Origin: Nocardia tengchongensis
Lineage (GTDB): Bacteria; Actinomycetota; Actinomycetes; Mycobacteriales; Mycobacteriaceae
NCBI RefSeq assembly: GCF_018362975.1
Contig: NZ_CP074371.1
Coordinates: 4,154,001 to 4,218,000 of the forward strand
DNA length: 64,000 nucleotides
Direction: 5' to 3'
Positions 49,920 to 62,018 of the stretch are shown one piece after another. Position 1 is the stretch's first letter; every line of letters starts with the position of its first letter. The position numbers were made by a program, and so were the translations under genes. The notes beneath the pieces were generated by a model. That model worked only from the letters and a program-made list of their open reading frames with translations. It was not told where the DNA came from and made no database searches.

Positions 49920-51104
49920 TCACGCTCCTGTCGCGGCGGCTTCGCCGTAGTAGTCGGTGTGGGCCTTGGTGATCGCGGTGACCAGCTGCCCGATCAGCAG
50001 CTCGCGGTTGTCGGCGGCGTACTGCAGGCTGTCCTCGCGCCGGCGGTTGCGGTTCTTGAAGTGCGGGATCACCTCCGAGGCGAACAGCTCGTAGCTGCGC
50101 TTGGTGTCCTCCCAGCTCGCCATGTCGACGTGCAGCACGAGCATGGTGCCGAAGCCGCCGGTCTTCTCGATCAGCTTCTCGATCCGTTCGATCGCCTCGC
50201 CGGGGGTGCCGATGATGGCCTGCCCGAATTCGCCGAGGTTCTCATTGCGCCACTGGTCGATGATCCCCTTGGGGGTGTCGGCCCAGGCCGGGTTCTCGCC
50301 GGTCTGCCGGTTCACGTAGGCTGCCATGGATCCGATGCGCCGGCTCACCGCGCGTTCGGCTTCCTCGCGCGTCTCGGCCAGGAAGATCGGGTTGACCAGT
50401 CGCCACCGCGACCGGTCGGCGACGTGCCCGTGCTCGGCGCACGCCTTCTCGTACACGCCCCAATTGCGGTCCAGCACTTCGAATCCCATGGGCGAGCTGG
50501 CGGCCAGCGACAGCAGCGACAGCCCGTGCTGTCCGGCCAGCACCGATCCGTTGGGAGAGATGGTGGAGGCGGTGGCGACCTCGATGCCGGCTGGATCGTA
50601 GGTCGGCAGCTGGGCGCGGGCGTCGCGCAGGGTGAACCAGTCGGTGGTCATGTTGACGACCTCGCCGCGCAGCAGCGCCAGGATCGCCTCGAGCGCCTCG
50701 CCCTGGCGGCGGCGTTGATCGGAGGGGTTGATGCCCATCATGTGCGCGTCGAGCGGAATCTTGCCGGGCCCGGTGCCGAAGATGAGGCGGCCGCGGGTCT
50801 GCAGGTCGAGCTGGGTGATGCGGTCGACGGTGACCAGCGGGTGGTGATAGGGCAGCGACATGACGCCGGTGCCGAAGCGCAGCCGCTCGGTGCGTTCGGC
50901 GGCCGCGGCGATGAAAACGTCGGGCGCGGGCACGATCTCGGCGCCGGTGGAGTGGTGCTCGCCCATCCACGCCTCGTCGAAGCCCAGGTGGTCGAGGTGT
51001 TCCATGAGATCGATGTCGCGGCGCAGCTGTAGCGCCGGATCGGCGTCGAGGGGGTGGTACGGGGCCAGGAAGGCCCCGAACTTCATCGATTCAGCAGTCC
51101 ACAT
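49920..51104 (-). CDS. Luciferase-like (LLM class) flavin-dependent monooxygenase
   Basis: A 394-residue bacterial luciferase-fold oxidoreductase using reduced FMN or F420. Features are MKFGAFLAPYHPLDADPALQ, GFDEAWMGEHHSTG, RLRFGTGVMSLPYHHPL and GRLIFGTGPGKIPLDAHMM. These resemble the limonene monooxygenase and alkanal monooxygenase-like group. AAGGAG precedes ATG 51104. It is the first gene of a two-gene operon with the zinc dehydrogenase. A perfect palindrome lies upstream, shared with a divergent TetR gene, so expression is probably inducible by the substrate. That substrate may be a terpenoid or aliphatic ketone (inference). Confidence 0.9.
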   Translation of the reverse strand: MWTAESMKFGAFLAPYHPLDADPALQLRRDIDLMEHLDHLGFDEAWMGEHHSTGAEIVPAPDVFIAAAAERTERLRFGTGVMSLPYHHPLVTVDRITQLDLQTRGRLIFGTGPGKIPLDAHMMGINPSDQRRRQGEALEAILALLRGEVVNMTTDWFTLRDARAQLPTYDPAGIEVATASTISPNGSVLAGQHGLSLLSLAASSPMGFEVLDRNWGVYEKACAEHGHVADRSRWRLVNPIFLAETREEAERAVSRRIGSMAAYVNRQTGENPAWADTPKGIIDQWRNENLGEFGQAIIGTPGEAIERIEKLIEKTGGFGTMLVLHVDMASWEDTKRSYELFASEVIPHFKNRNRRREDSLQYAADNRELLIGQLVTAITKAHTDYYGEAAATGA

Positions 51105-51165
51105 ACAGGGATCTCCTTACCCAGAGCGCCGGGCTTCGTCGCCCGGAGCGGTTCCCCGAGTAAAC

Positions 51166-51183
51166 CTGGATCAAGTGATCCAG
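51166..51183. promoter_or_regulatory. Perfect 18-base palindrome, likely TetR operator
   Basis: CTGGATCA-AG-TGATCCAG has perfect eight-base arms. It lies 62 bases before the leftward monooxygenase start and 175 before the divergent TetR start. Length and symmetry are typical of a TetR site. Confidence 0.7.
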
Positions 51184-51357
51184 AAATGTGGTCGTCCCGG
51201 TGAGTGGACATGATTGGAAAACTCAGGTAGTGATGCCATTCCGACCTCGATAATGGGCTGTTTCGGTGGAAAGAAATCGGTCCGACGATCCACTTCCGAA
51301 CCCCGCGCCGACGAGTCTCCAGCCGTCGTGTGCGAAGCTCGTGATGTGACCGTCCCG

Positions 51358-51993
51358 ATGCAGAACCGCCAGGGCAATGCGACCCGCACCCGGCTGGTGA
51401 AGACCGCCGAGCGTCTGTTCGCCGCCCACGGCGTGGACGCCGTCTCGGTGCGCGCGGTGAACGCGGCGGCCGGTCTCGGGCCCTCATCGGTCAACTACCA
51501 CTTCGGAACCAAGGACGATCTGATCGCGGCGGTGCTGCTCGATCTCGGTGCGGCCGTGCGTGACCGCATCCGCGCCAATGCCGACGTGCTGGCGGCGCGG
51601 GCCGAGCCGCCCACCGCGGAGACCCTGGTGCGCGCGGTCACCGAGCCGTATCGGGACCTGCTGCTGGCGCACCGGACGCGCGGCATGCGCTGGATCAAGA
51701 TCGTCACCCAGCTGTCCCTGGTATCGCATCCCGCGCTGATCGCCTCCGAACAGGACCTCCCCGATCAGTTGCACGTCCAGTTGCGCCGGGCGTTCCCGGC
51801 ATCGGATCCCGAACGGCTGGAGGCGCGCTGGGCGATAGCGCTCATGGGCTTCCTGCAGGCGCTGAGCCGAGCCGACGATTGGCATCCGGGCGCGACGCCG
51901 CCGCCCGCGCAGGAGTTGGCCGCGCTGTACGAGGACCAGGTCGTTTTCCTGATCGGCGGTCTCGACCGGCTGCTGAGTGGGACTGCCCGCTGA
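51358..51993 (+). CDS. TetR-family transcriptional regulator
   Basis: A 211-residue TetR protein. The helix-turn-helix is LVKTAERLFAAHGVDAVSVR followed by AAAGLGPSSVNYHFGTKDDL, and the C-terminal domain is typical of the TetR_C_6/17 group. ATG 51358 is used; GTG 51346 is an alternative. It is divergent from the luciferase-like monooxygenase and zinc dehydrogenase operon, with a perfect palindrome in the gap. It lies about 210 bases before a secreted lipase gene on the same strand, which it may also influence. Confidence 0.9.
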   Translation: MQNRQGNATRTRLVKTAERLFAAHGVDAVSVRAVNAAAGLGPSSVNYHFGTKDDLIAAVLLDLGAAVRDRIRANADVLAARAEPPTAETLVRAVTEPYRDLLLAHRTRGMRWIKIVTQLSLVSHPALIASEQDLPDQLHVQLRRAFPASDPERLEARWAIALMGFLQALSRADDWHPGATPPPAQELAALYEDQVVFLIGGLDRLLSGTAR

Positions 51994-52204
51994 CAGTTCG
52001 TGCCCGCTTTGTCCGGCTATCTGGACGCTGGGCCAGGTTAGCTGTAGCGTCACTGTACGATTCGCGACGGGCTTGCTGTCTGTCCGCTACCGAATCATGG
52101 GCGCGGCTGTGCCGCATGCCAATCCGTTGCTTGTTGGTCGATCGTTCGTTCGCCGTGCAGTCGGGGGCGCGAGACTCGAACGGCTGAAGTGTGAGGGAAC
52201 GTCG

Positions 52205-53392
52205 TTGTTCGCAGTATCCGCCAGGGCAGTGGTCCTGGCTCTGAGCATCCTGACCGCGGGAGCCGTGTGTGCACCCGTGTCGGCTCAACCCCTTTATCCC
52301 ACACAGGATTCCGATCCTTTCTATAGCCCGCCCGCCGATCTGGGTGGTTTCGCGCCCGGTGACGTGGTCCGCACCCGCCGCATCGATACCGGCCTGTACG
52401 TGGGCACCGACGGCTGGCAGGTCGCCTTCCGCAGCACCAATTCCCAGGGCCAGCCGATCCTGGGCATGACCACGGTGCTGATGCCGAAGGGCGTCAAGAA
52501 CCCGCCGCTGGTGTCGTATCAGGCCCTGATCAATTCCCTCGGCTCGCAGTGCAATCCGTCGCGGTCGCTGTTCAACGGCGAACTCCAGGACGGCGCGGGC
52601 GCGATGCTGCCGATCGGACGCGGCTGGGCCATCTCGATGCCGGACTACCTGGGGCCCAATGTCGCCTACGGTGCGGCCAAGCTGAGCGGCATGGTCACCC
52701 TCGACAGCGTGAAGGCGGTCCGCAAGGTCGCCGAGCTGGGGCTGGGTAGCTCACCGGTCGCGTTGGCCGGGTACTCGGGCGGCGGCATGGCCACCGCGTG
52801 GGCCGGTGCGCTGCAGCCGGAGTACGCCCCGGACCTGAAGCTGGACGCCGTGGTGGCGGGCGGCATTCCGGCCGACCTGGAGGAGATGGCGCTGTCGCTG
52901 GGCTTCGCGCCGCACCCGGGCTTCGGCCTGGCCTTCGCCGCGGCGATGGGCCTGGAGCGCGAATATCCGGACCGCCTGCCGATCTCGGATCAGCTCAACG
53001 AGAACGGCCTGTGGTTCCGGGAATTCACCCACGACGCCTGCCGCCGCTTCCTGCTGTTCCACGGCGCCTTCCGCAGCGCCGATCAGCTGGCCGCGTCCAA
53101 GAGCCTGATGGATTCGCCGGTGGCGCACGAGGTGCTGCGGGAGAACAGCCTGCGCTACAACTCCGCCGTCCCGACCGCCCCGACCTACTTCTGGCAGGGC
53201 CGTTTCGACGAGCTGACCGCCTTCGCTCCGGTGGCCGAGGTGGCGGACCGCTACTGCAAGGCGGGTGCGCCGGTGGTGTTCCGGCCGTTCGAGATCGCCG
53301 AGCACATGACCACCGCGGTCGCCGGTTTCCCGGATGCCTGGAACTACGTGGAGTCCCGTTTCCGCGGGGATCCGGTTCCGTCCAGCTGCTGA
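52205..53392 (+). CDS. Secreted lipase, LIP family (second copy)
   Basis: A 395-residue exported lipase, paralogous to the one at 21.8 kb. The signal peptide (FAVSARAVVLALSILTAGAV, cleavage near VSAQP) directly follows TTG 52205, which is preceded by GAGGGA six bases away. Longer readings add an unlikely leader. The nucleophile elbow is AGYSGGGMA (Ser about 188). An Asp in QGRFDELTAF and His in IAEHMTT complete the triad. It is probably active on host or environmental lipids. It lacks its own divergent regulator; a TetR gene precedes it on the same strand. Confidence 0.88.
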   Translation: MFAVSARAVVLALSILTAGAVCAPVSAQPLYPTQDSDPFYSPPADLGGFAPGDVVRTRRIDTGLYVGTDGWQVAFRSTNSQGQPILGMTTVLMPKGVKNPPLVSYQALINSLGSQCNPSRSLFNGELQDGAGAMLPIGRGWAISMPDYLGPNVAYGAAKLSGMVTLDSVKAVRKVAELGLGSSPVALAGYSGGGMATAWAGALQPEYAPDLKLDAVVAGGIPADLEEMALSLGFAPHPGFGLAFAAAMGLEREYPDRLPISDQLNENGLWFREFTHDACRRFLLFHGAFRSADQLAASKSLMDSPVAHEVLRENSLRYNSAVPTAPTYFWQGRFDELTAFAPVAEVADRYCKAGAPVVFRPFEIAEHMTTAVAGFPDAWNYVESRFRGDPVPSSC

Positions 53393-53526
53393 TCGTTAAC
53401 CAAGTATGTGCTGAAACGCCGTTCGATAGCCGATCCGCACCGATTGCCATAAGGGATAGAGTGCTTCCCTTCTGGATTTCCTTTGGTAACAGCTTGATTC
53501 CGGAACTTGTCAAGCCTGGTTCGGTC

Positions 53527-53550
53527 AATTACTTCTAGATAGAAGTAATT
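53527..53550. promoter_or_regulatory. Perfect AT-rich palindrome upstream of the HypX-like gene
   Basis: AATTACTTCTA and TAGAAGTAATT form perfect eleven-base arms around GA. The 24-base element is strikingly AT-rich for this genome and ends 40 bases before the GTG start. It could be an operator for a regulator encoded elsewhere, or overlap the promoter. Confidence 0.7.
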
Positions 53551-53590
53551 AGCTGGTTCAATGCCGAACCACGTTTCGAGGAGGAATCCG

Positions 53591-55276
53591 GTGCGTATCC
53601 TGCTGCTGGCCGGCGCTTTCGACAGCCTGACGCAACGCGTCCGGTGCGAGCTGGTCGAGCGGGGCCATCGGATCGGGATCGAACTGGCGCTCGGTGACGA
53701 CGACACGCGGGCGGGTGCACAGGCCTTCGAACCGGACCTGATCGTCGGGCTCATGCTCGCCGATCAGGTCCCGGCGGACCTGTGCGCCCGCCATGTCGTG
53801 CTGCAGGTGAACCCGGGACCCGAAGGCGATCACGGCCCGTCGTCCCTGGATTGGGCGATCGGCACCAACGCCCCCTATTGGAGCGTGACCGTGCAGCGGG
53901 CGGTCGGCGCCTCAGGTGCCGGTCCGGTCTGGGCCTCGGAAACGTTCCCGCTGCGCCAGTGCGGTAAGAGCGAGCTGTACCGGACCGAGGTCGCCGATGC
54001 CGCGGTGCGGGCCCTGCTGCGCGCGATCGAACGGTTCGAGCGCACCGGCGCCGAGCCGATCGATTCGCGCCTCGAGGTGTCCGCGCCGCCGCCTCCGCCC
54101 TACACCCAGTACTTCCGCCGCATCGACTGGGCACACGACAGCACCGCCACCGTGCTGCGCAAACTCCGTGCCGCCGACTCGAATCCGGGTGTCCTGGACC
54201 AGCTGTACGGCCGCGAAGTGTTTCTCTACGGCGGCCATCTGGAGGACCGGTTGCGCGGTGCCCCCGGCAGCGTGATCGCCACCCGCGACGGCGCGATCTG
54301 CCGCGCCACCGTCGACGGCGCGGTCTGGATCCCGCAACTGCGCGCCCGCCCGCTGCCCGGCGGCCCGGCCACCTACAAGCTGCCCGCGACCGAGGTGCTC
54401 GGCCCCGAACCACTGGCCGATGTCCCGGACGTGCCGGTCAGCCCGTGCGAGGCGGCGGTCCGCGTCACCTGGTCGGAGCTGCGGTATTACGAATACGACG
54501 AGGTCGGCTACCTGGGCTTCACCTATGCCGGCGGCGCGTTGAGCACCGCCCAGTGCGAACGCCTGCTGGCGGCCTACCGGCAGGCCTGCGCCCGCCCGGT
54601 GAAGGTGCTGGTGCTGGGTCCGGCCCGGGACTTCTTCTGTAATGGCATCCAGCTCAATGTGATCGAGGCGGCCGCGGATCCGGCCGCCGAGGCGTGGCGC
54701 AATGTCAACGCCTTCAACGATCTGGTCGAGGCCATCCTCACCACCACCGACAAGCTCGTGATCTCCGCGCTGCCCGGCAATTCCGCCGCGGGCGGGGTGA
54801 TGCTGGCGCTGGCCGGCGACGAGGTGTGGTGCCGGGAGTCGGTGGTGCTGAACCCGCACTACCGCCTGTCGGGCCTGCGTGGTTCGAAGTACTGGACCTA
54901 CACCATGCCGCGTCGTGTCGGCGCCGAGTGCGCGGATCGTCTGACGGGCGAGGCCCTTCCGATCGGCGCTCGCTCCGCGGCCCGGCTGGGCCTGGTGGAT
55001 CGGGTGGCGGCCGGTGATCCGGCCGAGTTCCGCACCTGGGTCCGACGCCAGGCCGCGGAGCTGGCCGCCGCCACCGACCTCGCCGCCCGCATCGACGAGA
55101 AGCGGCGCCGTCGCGCGGCCGACGAAGCGGCGAAACCCTTGGCGGTGTATCGATCCGAGGAGCTCGAACACCTCAACCGCGAGGTCTTCGATCCCGCCTC
55201 ACCGTTCCATCGGCTCCGCCGCGACTTCGTGACCAAGGCCGGGCCGCGGGCCACCCCGGCCTATCTGCTCGGCTGA
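53591..55276 (+). CDS. HypX-like protein: formyltransferase-type domain fused to an enoyl-CoA hydratase domain
   Basis: A 561-residue two-domain protein with the layout of HypX/HoxX, which makes the CO ligand of [NiFe] hydrogenase from formyl-tetrahydrofolate through formyl-CoA. The N-terminal half has the HypX block GDHGPSSLDWAI and then DWAHDSTATVLRKLRAADSN. The C-terminal half has RYYEYDEVGYLGFTYAGGAL, FFCNGIQLNVIEAA and VVLNPHYRLSGLRGSKYW. In HypX the first motif usually reads VHPGPxGDRGP; here it reads VNPGPEGDHGP, so the likely catalytic His is Asn74. Other family His positions also differ (NGIQLN, NVNAFND). GTG 53591 follows GAGGAGG. No hydrogenase or hyp genes are nearby. It may be a divergent paralogue with another role. 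Confidence 0.85.
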   Translation: MRILLLAGAFDSLTQRVRCELVERGHRIGIELALGDDDTRAGAQAFEPDLIVGLMLADQVPADLCARHVVLQVNPGPEGDHGPSSLDWAIGTNAPYWSVTVQRAVGASGAGPVWASETFPLRQCGKSELYRTEVADAAVRALLRAIERFERTGAEPIDSRLEVSAPPPPPYTQYFRRIDWAHDSTATVLRKLRAADSNPGVLDQLYGREVFLYGGHLEDRLRGAPGSVIATRDGAICRATVDGAVWIPQLRARPLPGGPATYKLPATEVLGPEPLADVPDVPVSPCEAAVRVTWSELRYYEYDEVGYLGFTYAGGALSTAQCERLLAAYRQACARPVKVLVLGPARDFFCNGIQLNVIEAAADPAAEAWRNVNAFNDLVEAILTTTDKLVISALPGNSAAGGVMLALAGDEVWCRESVVLNPHYRLSGLRGSKYWTYTMPRRVGAECADRLTGEALPIGARSAARLGLVDRVAAGDPAEFRTWVRRQAAELAAATDLAARIDEKRRRRAADEAAKPLAVYRSEELEHLNREVFDPASPFHRLRRDFVTKAGPRATPAYLLG

Positions 55277-55281
55277 ACGCG

Positions 55282-55597
55282 TCAGCTCGCGAGGCGCAGC
55301 ACCAGCGCCCCGGCGATGATGGCTCCGAACGCTACGACCTTGGGCGCGTTGATCTTCTCCCGGTAGATGAGCGCGCCCAGCACGACGGTGCCGATGGAGC
55401 CGAGGCCGGTCCAGATCGTGTAGCCCACCCCAACATCGAGGGTGCGCAGCGCGAGGCTGAGGGTGTAGATGCCGGCCGCGGCGGCGGCCAGGGTGAACAC
55501 CGACGGCCACAGCCGGGTGAATCCCTTGGTGGCATTGGTGCCGAGTGCGAAGGCGACCTCGAAGACGGCGGCGGATGAGCAGGTAGACCCAGGACAT
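55282..55597 (-). pseudogene. SMR-family exporter broken by one +1 frameshift
   Basis: The gene starts at ATG 55597 after GAGGAG and reads MSWVYLLI, then shifts out of frame. With one base removed from GG at 55573-55574 it continues AAVFEVAFALGTNATKGFTR and joins the frame ending FGAIIAGALVLRLAS at 55282. The result is a normal protein of about 104 residues with four membrane helices and the motif GVGYTIWTGLGSIGTV. It is the second of a pair of SMR genes, which often form heterodimeric exporters. It ends five bases from the convergent HypX-like gene. Confidence 0.8.
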
Positions 55598-55648
55598 GAC
55601 GGTTCTCCTCGAAAACGGTTGTACGGGAACGATGGTCGGTCCGGGGGT

Positions 55649-55984
55649 TCAGGCCGTTGTGCCGGTGAGCTTGTCGGCGAGCTTCAATCCGAGGACGCCG
55701 CCGATGATCAACGCGAAGGCCGCCACCTTGGCCGGGGTGAACGCTTCGCCGAACACGATGGCCCCGAACAGGACCGTGCCGACCGACCCGATGCCGGTCC
55801 ACACCGTGTAGCCGACCCCGACGTCGAGGGATTTCAGCGCGAGGCCGAGGAAGAAGATGCCGCCCGCGGCCGCCGCGGCGGTGAGCAGGGACGGCCCCAG
55901 GACGGTGAAGCCGTGGGTGGCGTTGGTCGCCAGGGCGAAGACGATCTCGAAGACCGATGCGATGAGCAGGTAGATCCAGGCCAT
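55649..55984 (-). CDS. SMR-family small multidrug or guanidinium exporter
   Basis: A 111-residue protein with four transmembrane helices. The family's essential glutamate is in SVFEIVFALATNA (Glu13), and GVGYTVWTGIGSVGTV forms helix three to four. The G-x-x-Y-x-x-W-x-G-x-G pattern is typical of SMR; the sequence is closer to the SugE/Gdx and paired types than to EmrE. AAGGAG precedes ATG 55984. It forms an operon with the frameshifted second SMR gene and is divergent from a MarR gene, which probably represses both. The substrate may be guanidinium or a quaternary ammonium compound. Confidence 0.92.
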   Translation of the reverse strand: MAWIYLLIASVFEIVFALATNATHGFTVLGPSLLTAAAAAGGIFFLGLALKSLDVGVGYTVWTGIGSVGTVLFGAIVFGEAFTPAKVAAFALIIGGVLGLKLADKLTGTTA

Positions 55985-56008
55985 GGGAGTCGCGCTCCTT
56001 CATGTTGT

Positions 56009-56055
56009 TGTATGTACGTGCAAGTAGTTGCCCGAAAAGCATGCATGTACATGTA
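56009..56055. promoter_or_regulatory. Pair of related palindromic sites between SMR and MarR genes
   Basis: TGTATGTACGTGCA (56009-56022) and TGCATGTACATGTA (56042-56055) are related in inverted orientation (11 of 14 bases). The second contains the palindromes CATGTACATG and TACATGTA. Their position between the divergent starts fits MarR operators. Confidence 0.55.
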
Positions 56056-56121
56056 AACTCGTGTCAAGACCCAGTGGCCGCGGACCTGGCCGGCCACGCG
56101 TCAGTTCGAGGGAGTGAGTCG

Positions 56122-56571
56122 ATGCCGTCGCAGGCCCGAGTGGCGAAAACCGGTGCGGACGCCCAACTCTGGAACCGGATGCTGATCCTGCACGCGCAGG
56201 TGGAGAGCCGCCTGGCGACCGTCCTGCAGCGCCGCCACGGGCTGGGGCTGTCCGAATACCGGGCGCTGAGCTTCCTCGATCAGGCCCCCGACAGTGAACT
56301 GCGCATGCAGGAACTCGCCGACAAGCTGGGCCTGAACCAGAGCTCGGTCACCCGGCTGGTCGGGCGCTTGAACGCCGCCGACCTCACCTATCGGGACCTG
56401 TGCCCCGACGACAAGCGCGGCGTCTACACGGTGCTCGCCGACCCCGGCCGCGAGCGCTACCGCGCGGCCCGCACGACCTACGAGGAGGCGCTGGCCGCGG
56501 CGTTCGCCGAGATCGCCGACGGCGACCCGGCGCTGGCCGCCATCCTGGCCGCGGCCCGCGCCGCCGGCTGA
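56122..56571 (+). CDS. MarR-family transcriptional regulator
   Basis: A 149-residue winged-helix regulator. The DNA-binding segment is LRMQELADKLGLNQSSVTRL, followed by the wing DLCPDDKRGVYTVLADPGRE and a C-terminal dimerisation helix. ATG 56122 is used, though upstream readings exist. It is divergent from the paired SMR exporter genes, with related palindromes in the gap, so it probably represses the pump until a toxic substrate binds. It ends 13 bases from the convergent thiolase gene. Confidence 0.93.
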   Translation: MPSQARVAKTGADAQLWNRMLILHAQVESRLATVLQRRHGLGLSEYRALSFLDQAPDSELRMQELADKLGLNQSSVTRLVGRLNAADLTYRDLCPDDKRGVYTVLADPGRERYRAARTTYEEALAAAFAEIADGDPALAAILAAARAAG

Positions 56572-56584
56572 TCGGCGCGCCGCG

Positions 56585-57756
56585 TCAGAGTGCTTCCAGG
56601 ATCATGGCATTGGCCTGGCCGCCGGACTCACACATGGTCTGCAGACCGTAGCGCGCGCCGCGCTCGTGCATGGCGTGCACGAGGGTGGCGGTGAGCCGGA
56701 CGCCGCTGGCGCCGAGCGGGTGGCCCAGTGAGATCGCGCCGCCGTGGACGTTCACCCGATCGAGGTCGGCCCCGGTTTCCCGCGCCCAGGCCAGCACGAC
56801 GCTGGCGTAGGCCTCGTTGATCTCGATGAGATCGATGTCGGCCAGCGTCAAACCTGTTTGCTTGAGCACCTTCTCGGTGGCCGGGACGACGGCGGTCAGC
56901 ATCAGGAACGGGTCGTCGCCGACGGCGATGTGACTGCGGATGCGCGCCAGCGGCTTCAGCCCGAGGCGGGCGGCGTTCTCGCTGGTGGTGACCACGACCG
57001 CGGCACTGCCGTCACCGAGCTGGCTGGCATTGCCGGCGGTGATGTGCCAGGCGATCTCGGGGAAGCGCGCGGCGATGGCCTCGTTGTAGAACGAGGGCGG
57101 CAGTGCGCCGAGGCCGGCCGCGGTGGAGTCGAATCGGATGGTCTCGTCGCGGGCCAGGCCGTTGATCGGCGAGGTCAGCTCGGCGTCGAAGCCGCCGCGC
57201 GCGGTGGCCTCGGCGGCGCGGCGGTGGCTCTCGAGCGCGTAGTCGTCGAGCTGGTTGCGACCGAATCCCAACGCGCGGTGATGAGTTCGGCACTGATGCC
57301 CTGCCACGGCACACCCTGCGGGTAGCGTTCGAGGAAGGCCGAACCGGTGAGGTTGTCGACGTCGAGCAGGCTGGTGCCCATCGGAATCCGGCTCACCGAT
57401 TCGACGCCGGTGGCGACGACCAGATCGCAGTCGCCGGCGATGACCGCGTGCGCGGCGAAGCGCAACGCCTGCTGGCTGGCGCTGCACTGGCGGTCGATGG
57501 TGCTGGCGGGCACCGATTCCGGGAACCCGGCCGCCAGCGAGGCGCGCCGGGTGACATTGGTGGCCTGTTCGCCGACCTGGCTGACCACGCCGCCGATGAC
57601 CTCGTCGATCAGGGCCGGATCGATCCCGGCCTGATCGATGACGGCGCGCAGGCTGTGCGCCATCAGATCCACCGGGTGCACGCCGTCGAGCGCGCCGCCC
57701 TGCTTACCGCGTCCGATCGGGGTGCGCACCGCCGCGACGATGACCGCGTCGCGCAT
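56585..57756 (-). pseudogene. Thiolase broken by one -1 frameshift (last gene of the men operon)
   Basis: The first frame starts at ATG 57756 (MRDAVIVAAVRTPIGRGKQG) and holds the nucleophile in STIDRQCSASQQ. It runs to AELITARW. The second frame resumes GFGRNQLDDYALESHRRAAE and ends at 56585, carrying [25 protein letters not shown] and CESGGQANAMI. One C of the run 57266-57268 (plus strand) is missing; restored, the protein is about 391 residues. It shares one base with the menF stop (TGATG). A thiolase beside menDEF is unusual and may be part of a pathway that extends or cleaves an aroyl-CoA, or may simply be co-located. Confidence 0.85.
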
Positions 57757-58802
57757 CACGGGATCCCCAGCACGCGGCGCATGGTGGCCAGTTTGGCCGA
57801 GGTCTCGGCGAATTCGTCGTCGATGCGGCTGCGCGACACCACGCCGCCGCCGGCCCGCAGCGTCAGATCGCTACGGTGGGAATCCAATTCGAGTCCGCGC
57901 AGCGCCATGTGGAACTCGCAGTCGCCGGTGCTGTCGAGCCAGCCCACCAGGCCGCCGTAGTAGGCGCGCGCGGGTTCGTAGTCGGCGATCATGCGGCGCG
58001 ACAGCGCCTGCGGCACCCCGCAGACCGCGGGGGAGGGGTGCAGGGCCGCGACCAGGTCGGTCACCGGCGTCTCGGGGTCGATCAGGCGGGCGGTGATGGG
58101 AGTTCCCAAGTGCCACACGCCCGGAGCCTTCACCAGTTCCGGGTCGCCGGGATAGTCGAGGTCGGGGCAGAAGGCGGCCAGGCCCTTGACCATGAAATCG
58201 ACCAGGTGCCGGTGCTCGGCCAGGTACTTGTCGTCGAACAGGATGGCGCGGGCGCGCTCCTTGTCCTCGGAGTCGGGCAGGCGGGTGTCGCGCAGCACTG
58301 TGCCGGCCAGCGGCGTCATGGTGATGGTGGCACCGGACTTGGCCAGGAACAGTTCCGGGCTCGCGCCCATGGTGTACACGCCGGGGTGGTCGAGGTGCTC
58401 GACGAAGTAGCTGCGCGCGTTCGGGTAGAGCTCCGCGAACCGCTCGAACAGCGCGTGCGGGTCGACGACGCCGTCGTAGAAATAGCGTTCGCAGCGCGAG
58501 ATGACGATCTTCTCGAGGTCCGTGCCGGGCGCCCGCAGCTGCGTCAGGGCATCGTCGATGAGCCGCAGGTAGTTCGCGATCGCGGCGTCGTTGAACTCGA
58601 TGTCGCAACGGAATTCGGGATGCGCGCCGGCGCCGGGCCGGGTGCGGGCGTCGTTGCGCCAGCCCAGGTACAGCGAGGAGCCGGCGAGTTCGGTGTCGAA
58701 GGGGATCGCCCCCGCCACCAGATTGCCGTAGGCCCCCGCGCGGACGGCGGCCTCGGCCTCGGCCAGGTTGTCGTAACAGATCAGCGGGCCGTCCAAGCCC
58801 AC
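57756..58802 (-). CDS. menF: Isochorismate synthase
   Basis: A 348-residue chorismate-binding enzyme that converts chorismate to isochorismate. The typical blocks are KIVISRCERYFY, ASPELFLAKSG, TMTPLAGTV, WHLGTPITARL, HPSPAVCGVPQ and a final LRAGGGVVSRSR. The length fits single-domain isochorismate synthases (EntC/DhbC/MenF). No lyase residues of salicylate synthase are evident, and no pyruvate lyase is adjacent. It starts with GTG 58802, 36 bases after menE, and is followed by the thiolase with a one-base overlap. With MenD next door it should feed the menaquinone branch. Confidence 0.92.
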   Translation of the reverse strand: MGLDGPLICYDNLAEAEAAVRAGAYGNLVAGAIPFDTELAGSSLYLGWRNDARTRPGAGAHPEFRCDIEFNDAAIANYLRLIDDALTQLRAPGTDLEKIVISRCERYFYDGVVDPHALFERFAELYPNARSYFVEHLDHPGVYTMGASPELFLAKSGATITMTPLAGTVLRDTRLPDSEDKERARAILFDDKYLAEHRHLVDFMVKGLAAFCPDLDYPGDPELVKAPGVWHLGTPITARLIDPETPVTDLVAALHPSPAVCGVPQALSRRMIADYEPARAYYGGLVGWLDSTGDCEFHMALRGLELDSHRSDLTLRAGGGVVSRSRIDDEFAETSAKLATMRRVLGIP

Positions 58803-58838
58803 CGGCCTTTCGCGCCGGCTAGGCGGAATCGCACGGGA

Positions 58839-59999
58839 TCATGCATGGGTGGGCTCCGATTCGGTGGTGGTCAGTCGTTGGTGCACGGCGCGGCGGTCGA
58901 TCTTCGAGTTCGGCAGCAGGGGCAGCTCGGTGCCGAGCACGAAACGCTTCGGCACGGCCGCGCGGCCCAGGCGTCGCCGGACGCTGTCGCGCAGCGGTTC
59001 GAGGTCCGGGATCGCTCGGCGGGTCACGATGTACGCGCCGACGAGCTCGCCCCATTCGCGGTCGGGCACGCCCATGACCACTGCGGACTCGATCCCCGGA
59101 ACGCCGGTCAGCGCCTGTTCGATCGCGACCGCGGAGACCTTGACCCCGCCGGTGTTGATCAGATCGTCGACGCGGCCGGTCGGGACCAGCAGGTCCTGGG
59201 ACCAGTGCCCGCGATCGGAGGTGCGGTACCAGCGCGTGTCGCCCTCGCGATAGAAGGGCTGCTCGCCGGCGTCGCCGAGATAGCCGTCGGCCACCACGTC
59301 GCCGCCCAGGTGGATGAGTCCGTCCACGATGCGCGCCTCGACACCGCGCAGGGGGACGCCGTCGTAGACGCAGCCGCCGCAGGTCTCGGTCATGCCGTAG
59401 GTCACCACGGCATCGGTGAGCTCGCGCAGCCTGCGGCCGGTCTCCTCGTCCAGGCGCGCGCCGCCGATCAGGATCTTGTCGAAACAGCCCAGAGCGCTGC
59501 GGGATTCGGCGTCAGCGAGCAGGCGGGTGACCTGGGTGGGCACCAGCGAGGCGTAGCGGCGGCCGGCGGGCATGCGCCGGGCCGCGGCGGCGAAGGCGGC
59601 CGGATCGAAGTGGCCGCCGGGCAGCGTGGTCACGCGGGTGCCGCCGAGCGCGGCCCGCGAGATCACCTGGAAGCCCGCGACGAACCCGGCCGGCAGGCAC
59701 AGCAGCCAGTCGCCCGCGCCGCCGAGCCGTTCCGCGCTGGCCTGCGCCGAGGCCAGCAAAGCCTTGCGGGACAACAGGGTTCGCTTGGGCACACCGCTGG
59801 ATCCGGAGGTGGACAGCAGCACCGCCGTGGTGGCGGGCACGGTCGGCGGAAGCTGCTGTGCCTGAGCGGAATCGGTGACCGGTGCGATCGCCTGCTCACC
59901 GGTGTAGGCGAGTTCGATGGCGCGTTGCAGCGCATCGACCGCGGCGTCGGGATCTTCGGGGAGGAGCAGGGGAGTCAAGGGAATGGCGGGGTGTGGCAT
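58839..59999 (-). CDS. menE: o-Succinylbenzoate-CoA ligase
   Basis: A 386-residue acyl-CoA synthetase of the actinobacterial MenE type, which activates o-succinylbenzoate. Motifs are STSGSSGVPKRTLLS, GDWLLCLPAGFVAGFQV, the substrate block RYASLVPTQVTRLL, YGMTETCGGCVYDGVPL, YRTSDRGHW and GRVDDLINTGGVKV. Residue patterns match MenE better than general fatty acid ligases. ATG 59999 shares its first base with the menD stop (TGATG). In the usual pathway MenE acts after MenC and before MenB, but neither is in this window. Confidence 0.92.
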   Translation of the reverse strand: MPHPAIPLTPLLLPEDPDAAVDALQRAIELAYTGEQAIAPVTDSAQAQQLPPTVPATTAVLLSTSGSSGVPKRTLLSRKALLASAQASAERLGGAGDWLLCLPAGFVAGFQVISRAALGGTRVTTLPGGHFDPAAFAAAARRMPAGRRYASLVPTQVTRLLADAESRSALGCFDKILIGGARLDEETGRRLRELTDAVVTYGMTETCGGCVYDGVPLRGVEARIVDGLIHLGGDVVADGYLGDAGEQPFYREGDTRWYRTSDRGHWSQDLLVPTGRVDDLINTGGVKVSAVAIEQALTGVPGIESAVVMGVPDREWGELVGAYIVTRRAIPDLEPLRDSVRRRLGRAAVPKRFVLGTELPLLPNSKIDRRAVHQRLTTTESEPTHA

Positions 60000-61699
60000 C
60001 AGGAGTGCAGCTCCAGCTCGAGATTCATCGCCGAGACCGCTGTGGCGTCGAAGGCCTCCTCGGCGGCCTGCCGGGTGCCCGCGTGCACATCGCGCAAAGC
60101 GGTTCGGGTGACGGGTATTTCGAGGACCGACAGGCGCTGCGCCGTGCGGGCCCGCCCGAGCGTCGCGGGCAGGTCGTCGATCTCGACCGTGGCGTGCGCG
60201 ACGTCGTAGGCGCTGCACAGGTGGGCGATGTCGATGTTCTGCGGCGTGCCGTAGATCCGCTCGAAGGTGTCGCCGTAGGGTTCCCGCTTGTAGCGGGCGT
60301 CGCCCTGTTCGAGGAGCTCGAAGATGCCGCCACCGGAATCGTTGGACACGACGATGATCAGATTAGCGGGCATCCGCTCGAGCCGCCCGGTCTGCAACCC
60401 CGACGCGTCGTAGGCGAAGGTCAGGTCGCCGAGCAGCGCGACGACGGTGCGGTCCGGATTCGCCAGCGCGACTCCCGTTGCGGCACTGACGTTTCCGTCG
60501 ATACCCGCGACACCGCGGTTGGACAGCACCTGCACGCCGGGCGGCACCAGGCCGGTCAGCGAGACGTCGCGAATCGCGTTGGACGCCCCGAGCCAGAGCA
60601 GGTCGCCGGGCCGCAGCGCGTTGAGCGCCGCGTGTGCCACGCCGACGCCGGTGCGGCGGTTGGCGGGTTCGGTCATGGTCCGGGTCCACGCGTCGCGCAC
60701 GATCGTGTCGGCCCGTTCGAGCTCCTCGATCCAGACCGGCGACGCGGCGCCGGTCCAGCGCGGATTCCGGGACAGCACTTCGATATCGGGTGCGGCATAG
60801 AGCCAGTCGCCGCCGCCGGCGACGAGCACACTGCGCACTCCCGGCCGGGCCAGCACCCGGCCGACATTGCGGTGCAGGGTCGGCCGGCCGTACACCACGA
60901 CCTGCTCGGGTCGCACCTGGTCCAGTACCCAGGGGTGCAGGCGTCGACGGTCGCCGACCTCGACGGTCGGTTCGGCCATGCACGGCAGGTGCGCCGGCAG
61001 CGCGGCCGGATCGGCCCCGTCGCCGGCGATGACGAGCGTGGGCCGGCGCAGATCGATCTCGGTGGCGTCCGGGTGCTGCGAGCGCGGGATCTCGGGCATG
61101 GCGATCCACGGCGTGCCGCCGGGACGGCCTGCGGGAGAGGAGGTTTCGGGTTGCGGTGGCAGGCCCGACGACAGCGGCACGTCGAGCTGGACCGGGCCCG
61201 GGCGGCCGACCAGCCGGCCGGTGCCGATGCCGAGTGCGCGGCACACCTGCGAGCGCAGCACGCCGTTGGCCGTCGCGCCGGACGAGTCGCCGGACCACAG
61301 CTGCTGCACGTGGCGCACCTGCGAGGCGAGCAACGCGGTCTGATCCACCGTCTGCGACGCCCCCGTGCCCAGCACGTCCGGCGGCCGATTCGCGGTCACC
61401 AGCACCAGCGGCAGATCGGAGTAGTTGGCCTCGGTGACGGCGGGCAGCAGGTTCGACACCGCCGTGCCCGAGGTGGTCACCACCGCCGCCGGAATGCCGG
61501 TCGCCTTCGTGATGCCCAGTGCCACAAAGGCTGCCGAGCGTTCGTCGAGACGGACCTGAAGGTTGATCTCCCCGGCGCGCGCTCGGCGGGCCAGTTCGAA
61601 TCCGAGAGGACCGTTCCGGGAGCCGGGGCAATACACGAACCATTGCACGCCGTTGCGAATCAATTCGTCGACGACTATCGCCGAGATCACCGAAGGCAT
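59999..61699 (-). CDS. menD: SEPHCHC synthase (2-succinyl-5-enolpyruvyl-6-hydroxy-3-cyclohexene-1-carboxylate synthase)
   Basis: A 566-residue thiamine-diphosphate enzyme that joins isochorismate and 2-oxoglutarate-derived succinic semialdehyde, the first committed step to menaquinone. It has VVDELIRNGVQWFVYCPGSR, ERSAAFVALGITKATGIPAA, TSGTAVSNLLPAVTEANYSD, and the ThDP pocket block LLGDLTFAYDASGL with IVVSNDSGGGIFE. ATG 61699 fits the family; an earlier ATG at 61735 would add twelve residues. It is the first gene of the menD-menE-menF-thiolase operon, with one-base overlaps to menE. Confidence 0.94.
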   Translation of the reverse strand: MPSVISAIVVDELIRNGVQWFVYCPGSRNGPLGFELARRARAGEINLQVRLDERSAAFVALGITKATGIPAAVVTTSGTAVSNLLPAVTEANYSDLPLVLVTANRPPDVLGTGASQTVDQTALLASQVRHVQQLWSGDSSGATANGVLRSQVCRALGIGTGRLVGRPGPVQLDVPLSSGLPPQPETSSPAGRPGGTPWIAMPEIPRSQHPDATEIDLRRPTLVIAGDGADPAALPAHLPCMAEPTVEVGDRRRLHPWVLDQVRPEQVVVYGRPTLHRNVGRVLARPGVRSVLVAGGGDWLYAAPDIEVLSRNPRWTGAASPVWIEELERADTIVRDAWTRTMTEPANRRTGVGVAHAALNALRPGDLLWLGASNAIRDVSLTGLVPPGVQVLSNRGVAGIDGNVSAATGVALANPDRTVVALLGDLTFAYDASGLQTGRLERMPANLIIVVSNDSGGGIFELLEQGDARYKREPYGDTFERIYGTPQNIDIAHLCSAYDVAHATVEIDDLPATLGRARTAQRLSVLEIPVTRTALRDVHAGTRQAAEEAFDATAVSAMNLELELHS

Positions 61700-62018
61700 G
61701 CGGTATTTCCAAACTGAAACGATGTCGTCCCACACGAATGCGGAACCGATTCAAAATTACTCACAAAACAATCCCGACCACAGACCCCGACAATTAAGCG
61801 TTGTTGATCAGCCGACCCGCAACGTCATGGCAACACGCTATCGGCACCTGCTCGATGCTGTCAATGTGAGCCGCCACTCTCAACAGCCTTGCAGCTCAGA
61901 GCGATTCGGTCGCCCCCGCAGGGTGTGACCGGGGTCGGTGCACAGACTTGTCTGTCAATCCGGTCATCGCGCCGCTGTAAGTCAGATCTGTCTCATTCGA
62001 CGGCGCGTATTCACTTGG
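61700..62018. other. Intergenic stretch with the men operon promoter
   Basis: About 319 bases between the P450 gene and menD, both leftward. The half near menD is less GC-rich (AAAATTACTCACAAAACAATC-like run near 61752-61772). It is the likely promoter site, but no clear operator or gene was seen. The gap means menD need not be cotranscribed with the P450 genes. Confidence 0.5.

Follow-up and report, generated by a model that had tools for sequence, protein, structure and literature searches.

Nocardia tengchongensis encodes a protein of HypX ancestry which belongs to a small clade of its own and probably does not carry out the CO-making HypX reaction. The literature covered here describes HypX as the enzyme that supplies NiFe hydrogenases with their CO ligand; it generates CO from formyl-THF via formyl-CoA (review PMC12134894). 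The gene lies in a 64,000-nucleotide stretch of DNA, here called the window, and it has replaced catalytic residues at both active sites, a clade-wide pattern of further changes, no adjacent MHYT partner gene, and a split in constraint between its two domains in the one species pair compared. The loss of the CO-making reaction is proposed because of the replaced residues and the split in constraint, which suggest that a disabled formyl-transfer half probably sits on a retained, altered CoA domain.

The gene and its two domains

The window protein is homologous to HypX over its full length, with a formyltransferase-type N-terminal domain fused to a crotonase C-terminal domain. The two-domain HypX/HoxX layout described in the first-pass annotation is therefore correct, and the reading frame is intact (Table 1). 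An AF2 model is confident overall (pLDDT 89.1, pTM 0.90), with dips over the altered N-terminal site (blocks 71–90 and 101–110) and also over 151–170, 421–430, and the end. NCBIfam gave only crotonase matches below the cut-off among the 25 of 38 rows listed. A missing Formyl_trans_N Pfam match was considered as a mark of the clade and rejected, as the intact proteins P0007, P0015, P0016, and P0077 also have no such match in the precomputed list.

Table 1. Positions in the window of the HypX-derived gene, its domains, its catalytic codons, and the upstream lipase gene
Feature	Position	Strand	Evidence
HypX-derived two-domain protein, 561 aa, GTG start	53591..55276	+	Homology and domain comparison
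Formyltransferase-type N-terminal domain, approximately residues 1–270, relaxed constraint	53591..54400	+	dN/dS 0.355 (pair with N. niigatensis)
Asn74 codon (Aquifex His74, catalytic triad)	53810..53812	+	Alignment
Asp80 codon (Aquifex Asp80), kept	53828..53830	+	Alignment
Gly109 codon (Aquifex Asp109, proposed base)	53915..53917	+	Alignment
Crotonase (CoA) C-terminal domain and tail, from approximately residue 289, constrained	54455..55273	+	PF00378; dN/dS 0.119
Tyr424 codon (Aquifex Tyr416), kept	54860..54862	+	Alignment
Lys433 codon (Aquifex Glu426, candidate decarbonylation base)	54887..54889	+	Alignment
Secretory lipase (LIP) gene, upstream; also a neighbour in N. niigatensis	51977..53392	+	Pfam

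Catalytic residues are replaced at both sites

The study of Aquifex HypX proposes His74, Asp80, and Asp109 as the formyl-transfer triad, and Tyr416 and Glu426 as the decarbonylation site (Muraki 2019, PMC6802093). These five residues are called perfectly conserved in an earlier homologue list, the equivalents of Tyr416 and Glu426 are stated to be needed in Ralstonia eutropha, and the pterin is held by loops at residues 53–62 and 103–114 (PMC6802093). Aquifex HypX is the sole proven HypX in the alignment, the Cupriavidus/Ralstonia enzyme being known here from papers only. Aligned with it, the window protein has Asn74, Asp80, Gly109, Tyr424, and Lys433, so that three of the five published catalytic residues are replaced. 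The N-domain triad is incomplete (Asn, Asp, and Gly), as is the C-domain pair, in which the Tyr416 equivalent is kept and Glu426 has become Lys. Some of the predicted CoA-contact residues (Gln15, Arg131, and Ser194) are kept, and Gln195 is replaced by Asn.

The alignment confirms the Asn previously noted in place of His at position 74, and likewise supports the earlier claim of altered catalytic residues at both sites, of which the first-pass annotation had noted only the first of three (His74, Asp109, and Glu426). A new transfer from formyl-THF is unlikely, given the replacement of Asp109 and the changes at several residues of the folate loops.

A small Nocardia clade shares the changes

A protein search of ~5.8 billion sequences yielded 6267 matches at E <= 1e-40 among 8000 candidates scored, and the query was aligned with the best 120 of these (n = 121). 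In this alignment, P0001–P0005 (5/121, query included) stand apart as a small clade within Nocardia by Asp109Gly and Glu426Lys, and Gly109, His81, and Lys are found nowhere else; all five catalytic residues are kept in the other 116 of 116 proteins. Position 74 reads N, N, Q, H, and N in P0001–P0005, His74 being kept in P0004. Asn74 was accordingly rejected as a clade signature. The named sources are N. tengchongensis (P0002, 97% identity, and P0005, a partial record, 92%) and Nocardia sp. NPDC004340 (P0003, 84%), and the N. niigatensis locus L120, which is the same place as G080/L042 (79%), carries H, D, His81, G, Y, and K. The frame is open at full length in P0001–P0004. Sequencing or frame error was rejected as the cause of the substitutions, since the same changes recur in the records of other species.

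The changes extend well beyond the catalytic residues. Columns were taken as invariant where 99% or more of the 116 intact proteins agree (n = 183). Of these, 147 are unchanged in the clade, 13 are changed and fixed, and 23 are changed and mixed or variable; over the same columns, three control groups have 0 fixed changes and 14, 4, and 1 variable positions. The fixed N-domain changes are at 11, 54, 81, 102, 103, and 109, and those in the C domain (window numbering) are Ser350Cys, His354Gln, Met427Ser, Glu433Lys, Met528Leu, Phe532Val, and Tyr539Phe, the last three seen in four clade proteins because P0005 is partial. Mixed or variable positions number 14 in the N half (including 57, 65, 70, 72, 74–76, 98, and 110) and 9 in the C half. 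Several of the N-domain changes fall in the pterin-holding loops.

Phylogeny and selection

An 84-row tree was built by a quick method with SH-aLRT supports only; L121 and L152 were deliberately left out, and several other loci are also absent. In this tree the clade (three rows) has a support of 100 and a stem of 0.32, and is sister to the HypX of N. terrae (96). It nests inside Nocardia HypX proteins, the majority of them encoded in tandem with an MHYT gene, and arrival of a foreign enzyme was rejected because of this nesting. The first-pass annotation had asked whether the variant forms a clade of its own with a conserved context: the clade is there, but no shared neighbourhood points to a function.

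Between the window gene and that of N. niigatensis (pairwise NG86, 60 bootstraps), dN/dS is 0.355 [0.26–0.48] in the N domain and 0.119 [0.08–0.18] in the C domain. The N/C ratio in this one species pair is 2.99, against 0.53–1.24 in 12 control pairs. C-domain dN/dS in the control pairs is 0.116–0.352 (n = 12), placing the window pair at the strict end, and dN/dS in the N domain falls far enough below 1 to indicate that some constraint is left. The split, from this single pair, is read as relaxed selection on formyl transfer in a protein that has retained its CoA domain. The earlier interpretation, a new reaction rather than decay, does not hold for the N-terminal site, which looks like decay given its dN/dS and the many pocket positions varying within the clade.

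Whole-protein decay, in which a recent relic is turning into a pseudogene with nothing retained, is nevertheless an unlikely explanation. Loss of the partner gene together with the active sites would fit it, as would the relaxed N domain, the nine formerly invariant C-domain positions that also vary in the clade, and the broken frame of the N. cerradoensis copy in the same genus (L152), which is possibly an assembly error. Set against these are the full-length open frames of P0001–P0004, the 13 fixed changes, and the strictness of selection on the C domain.

The explanation that appears reasonably probable is that the protein derives from a HypX–MHYT group, with its partner gone, its formyl-transfer site drifting, and its crotonase half kept in a CoA role. 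It would have originated as a full-length derivative of a hydrogenase-independent HypX group that is mostly MHYT-paired in Nocardia and Kitasatospora loci, and the MHYT membrane-protein partner would then have been lost in the window lineage. Of the three catalytic residues at the formyl-THF-to-CoA transfer site, one or two are gone: Asp109 is missing from every member and His74 from four of the five. Several folate-loop residues have changed as well, and on this reading the N-terminal site is drifting. In the crotonase half the catalytic Glu is swapped for Lys, and purifying selection persists in the one species pair compared. Such a protein would make no CO from formyl-THF, and might survive by binding CoA or handling CoA esters at a Tyr/Lys site, with a new or reduced crotonase activity and with its N domain being mainly a structural part of the CoA cavity. 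A CoA-dependent role of the crotonase domain is our best guess; no known reaction can be cited for Lys at the Glu426 position.

Hydrogenase genes in the genome and the genus

The window genome is a single contig of 8.0 Mb. It encodes NiFe hydrogenase large subunits at 4.81 and 4.83 Mb and a single HypD at 4.82 Mb, with hypF, hypC, hypD, and hypE in a row. These large-subunit and HypD genes are ~600 kb from the window gene, which has no hyp linkage, in agreement with the earlier observation that no hydrogenase or hyp gene is nearby. The genome has no full HypX homologue besides the window gene; four further matches are confined to a portion of the crotonase domain (E 4e-9 to 2e-4). The first-pass annotation had held that its claim would fall if a hydrogenase locus elsewhere had this gene as its only HypX and proven HypX proteins had the same substitutions. 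The first half of this is the case, with NiFe hydrogenase and hypF/C/D/E genes present; the second is not, as far as Aquifex HypX is concerned.

As the sole HypX homologue in a hydrogenase-bearing genome, and with His74 kept in one clade member, the protein could conceivably still make CO using other residues. This seems very improbable, as both Asp109 and Glu426 are lost, the Tyr416 and Glu426 equivalents are needed in R. eutropha (PMC6802093), the clade has no partner gene, and many HypD-bearing Nocardia have no HypX.

Across 150 Nocardia genomes, HypD was found in 85 and HypX in 77. The HypX group of the window, 59–79% identical to the window protein, occurs in 62 of the 150 (own copy included), and HypD is present in 38 of these 62 and absent from 24 (Fisher p 0.40). 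A different HypX, 35–40% identical, occurs in 15/150 genomes, with HypD in 15/15, while 32/150 have HypD and no HypX match. Consequently, Nocardia maturation genes often occur without HypX, and the window's group is independent of them. Linkage to hydrogenase or hyp genes is not universal even among intact relatives. PMC4767420 states that some high-affinity H2 oxidisers do not have hypX, and places the Streptomyces avermitilis hypX among high-affinity hydrogenase genes.

These distributions also bear on a non-catalytic helper, which would bind CoA or HypC/HypD and aid the distant hydrogenases without making CO. The presence of hydrogenase and hypF/C/D/E genes in the same genome favours such a role, as does the complex of Aquifex HypX with HypC and HypD (PMC6802093). 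It is an improbable one, given that the parent group is independent of HypD, that 32 genomes have HypD with no HypX match, and that hypX is dispensed with in some high-affinity H2 oxidisers (PMC4767420).

There is no sign of a link between the parent group and CO dehydrogenase: its large subunit is above the cut-off in 18/150 Nocardia genomes, and parent HypX occurs in 7/18 of these versus 62/150 overall (counted by eye). One Nocardia genome, G024, has two copies of the 35–40% HypX (L068 and L069), both near what appear by eye to be conjugation-like genes.

The parent group and its MHYT neighbour

Neighbourhoods were compared in 80 named loci, the best 80 of at least 592 relatives. An MHYT neighbour was scored if it lay no more than 1.5 kb downstream of hypX, and Nocardia loci were counted when they offered at least 1.3 kb of room; L085, L099, and L119 (Nocardia) and L110 and L112 (Kitasatospora-type) were dropped for lack of room. 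MHYT identity was confirmed with Pfam PF03707 for four proteins, two of them HypX-adjacent, and assigned in the rest by a family HMM, which was built from 21 Nocardia family F1 proteins, including three from regions of the 35–40% group. The gene caller was crude (GC3-based) and missed some genes, such as the L059 MHYT gene, which the HMM recovered.

Among these best 80 loci, a same-strand MHYT neighbour is present in 19/26 Nocardia loci with room, an opposite-strand (convergent) one in 15/17 Kitasatospora-type loci with room, and none in the remaining 32. The seven Nocardia loci without it are the clade member L120, L152 of N. cerradoensis, in which the reading frame is broken in the draft, and five intact others. 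L097, scored as lacking it, has an MHYT gene one gene further (1510 bp). In a separate set of genus loci with overlapping species, the neighbour is found in 19/24 parent-group loci and 0/7 of the 35–40% group; in three of these seven (L062, L064, and L067) an MHYT gene lies a few kb from hypX, and an eighth locus, L065, had no gene call for this check. With HypD in 15/15 and MHYT within 1.5 kb downstream in 0/7, the 35–40% group was rejected as being of the same kind. Intact HypX and MHYT pairs are found across named loci L074–L118 and genus loci L043–L061 and L070–L073, some of them in genomes without HypD.

Of the 32 remaining loci, 16 adjoin genes for hydrogenase subunits, a further 3 lie near hypF-type genes, 7 are from Variovorax, and 6 have neither in the part examined, the hydrogenase neighbour families being anchored on the window genome's own cluster. 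No HypD match was found in 5/19 Kitasatospora-type, 6/6 Variovorax, and 0/24 other genomes searched (L143 left out; genome completeness not given). Kitasatospora indigofera JCM 4646 has both kinds of gene, one beside MHYT (L103) and one beside hydrogenase genes (L140).

Two further associations were seen among the best 80 loci. In 14/19 Kitasatospora-type loci, hypX is immediately preceded, on its own strand, by a two-domain SLATT gene (2TM effector-type, ~307 aa) (family f11: L103, L104, L106–L114, and L116–L118; one member scanned by Pfam). The Variovorax loci (L125, L130, L136, L141, L143, L145, and L146) have intact HypX, with a sulfate-permease-type gene family beside hypX in 6/7, near metG- and scpA-type genes (L141 members scanned).

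Since MHYT genes occur in 150/150 Nocardia genomes, their presence alone is uninformative, and it is adjacency that counts. The linked Nocardia copies form one clade (7/7 used, 100/99), as do the linked Kitasatospora-type copies (9/9 used, 100/100), and unlinked copies from Nocardia are closer to the former clade than the latter clade is. Rows L162, L163, and L167 were counted as linked, being by contig coordinates the HypX-linked copies of L117, L100, and L104. The tree has long branches (L064, 3.43), and because its midpoint root is for drawing only, a pairing of HypX and MHYT that arose twice is offered as a suggestion.

PMC11347149 describes MHYT in CoxC as a copper-dependent CO sensor domain. 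The four MHYT proteins scanned here have no output domain visible to Pfam. No paper treating HypX or HoxX together with MHYT was found in the open PMC literature, which leaves most subscription journals outside, and none of the best 20 of 5,575 matches on HypX and CO signalling treats HypX outside hydrogenase.

Tentatively, the parent group might constitute a hydrogenase-independent CO module with the MHYT neighbour receiving or sensing CO. A fully equipped HypX would make CO from formyl-folate for an adjacent, dedicated MHYT protein, and the pair could serve in endogenous CO signalling or CO-to-copper pairing in actinobacteria. Two separate MHYT subfamilies, one tandem in Nocardia and one convergent in Kitasatospora-type loci, would have been recruited separately to pair with this one HypX group. 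The window clade would then have dismantled the module, giving up both the partner and formyl transfer while retaining the crotonase half, with Lys in place of the catalytic Glu, for a different CoA reaction.

The window clade without its partner

The MHYT neighbour is absent in both window-clade genomes examined. The window contains no MHYT match, and for N. niigatensis none was found beside the gene (L042, L120) or anywhere in the 21.7 kb of L120. A leftover MHYT fragment close to the window gene was also rejected: when the N. terrae MHYT protein was compared by tblastn with positions 51001–60000 of the window, it gave chance-level matches only (best E 1.3). MHYT genes number two in the whole window genome, with four domain matches between them, and both group with unlinked N. 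terrae copies.

Neighbours in common with the N. niigatensis locus are lipase, TetR, luciferase-type, and ADH genes (Pfam), and another which, by eye, we take to be a ParA-type gene; the Pfam scan gave no convincing functional hints among the window neighbours. A thiolase-type gene at 56585–57759 (−) is apparently split over two overlapping frames, of 194 aa with Thiolase_N (Pfam) and of 300 aa, the latter by eye presumably the rest of the thiolase, separated by a frameshift or sequencing error. A small multidrug resistance (SMR) type gene lies within 55199–55984 (−) (Pfam), and a second stretch beside it is by eye presumably another SMR gene with a broken frame. We take the genes at 57756–61735 (−), again by eye, to be menF, menE, and menD of menaquinone synthesis.

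Implications and comparison with known systems

More striking than the window variant is the complete parent HypX, which does not track hydrogenase and is paired with MHYT. There is a sizeable set of HypX genes in genomes without HypD, many of them beside an MHYT gene. If such HypX proteins make CO, bacteria would be using enzymatic CO for a second purpose, and signalling by endogenous CO becomes directly testable through the MHYT link. The annotation ‘hydrogenase maturation protein’ is no proof of a hydrogenase. In addition, a natural variant with its formyl-transfer site disabled and its CoA domain conserved provides a handle on which half matters for what.

Compared with Aquifex aeolicus HypX (PDB 6J0P), the window protein has His74, Asp109, and Glu426 replaced, Asn at Gln195, and several folate-loop residues changed; Arg9 and Asn306 also differ, but do so across the whole parent group. 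Compared with the crotonase/enoyl-CoA hydratase-isomerase superfamily (PF00378), it is distinguished by fusion to a formyltransferase-type domain. Its closest known relatives are in the parent group, for which the name MHYT-adjacent HypX group of Nocardia/Kitasatospora is coined here, with ~59–70% identity and with the window clade nested inside it in the tree. Aligned members of that group keep all five catalytic residues and mostly have an adjacent MHYT gene, whereas the window gene has neither the full set nor the neighbour.
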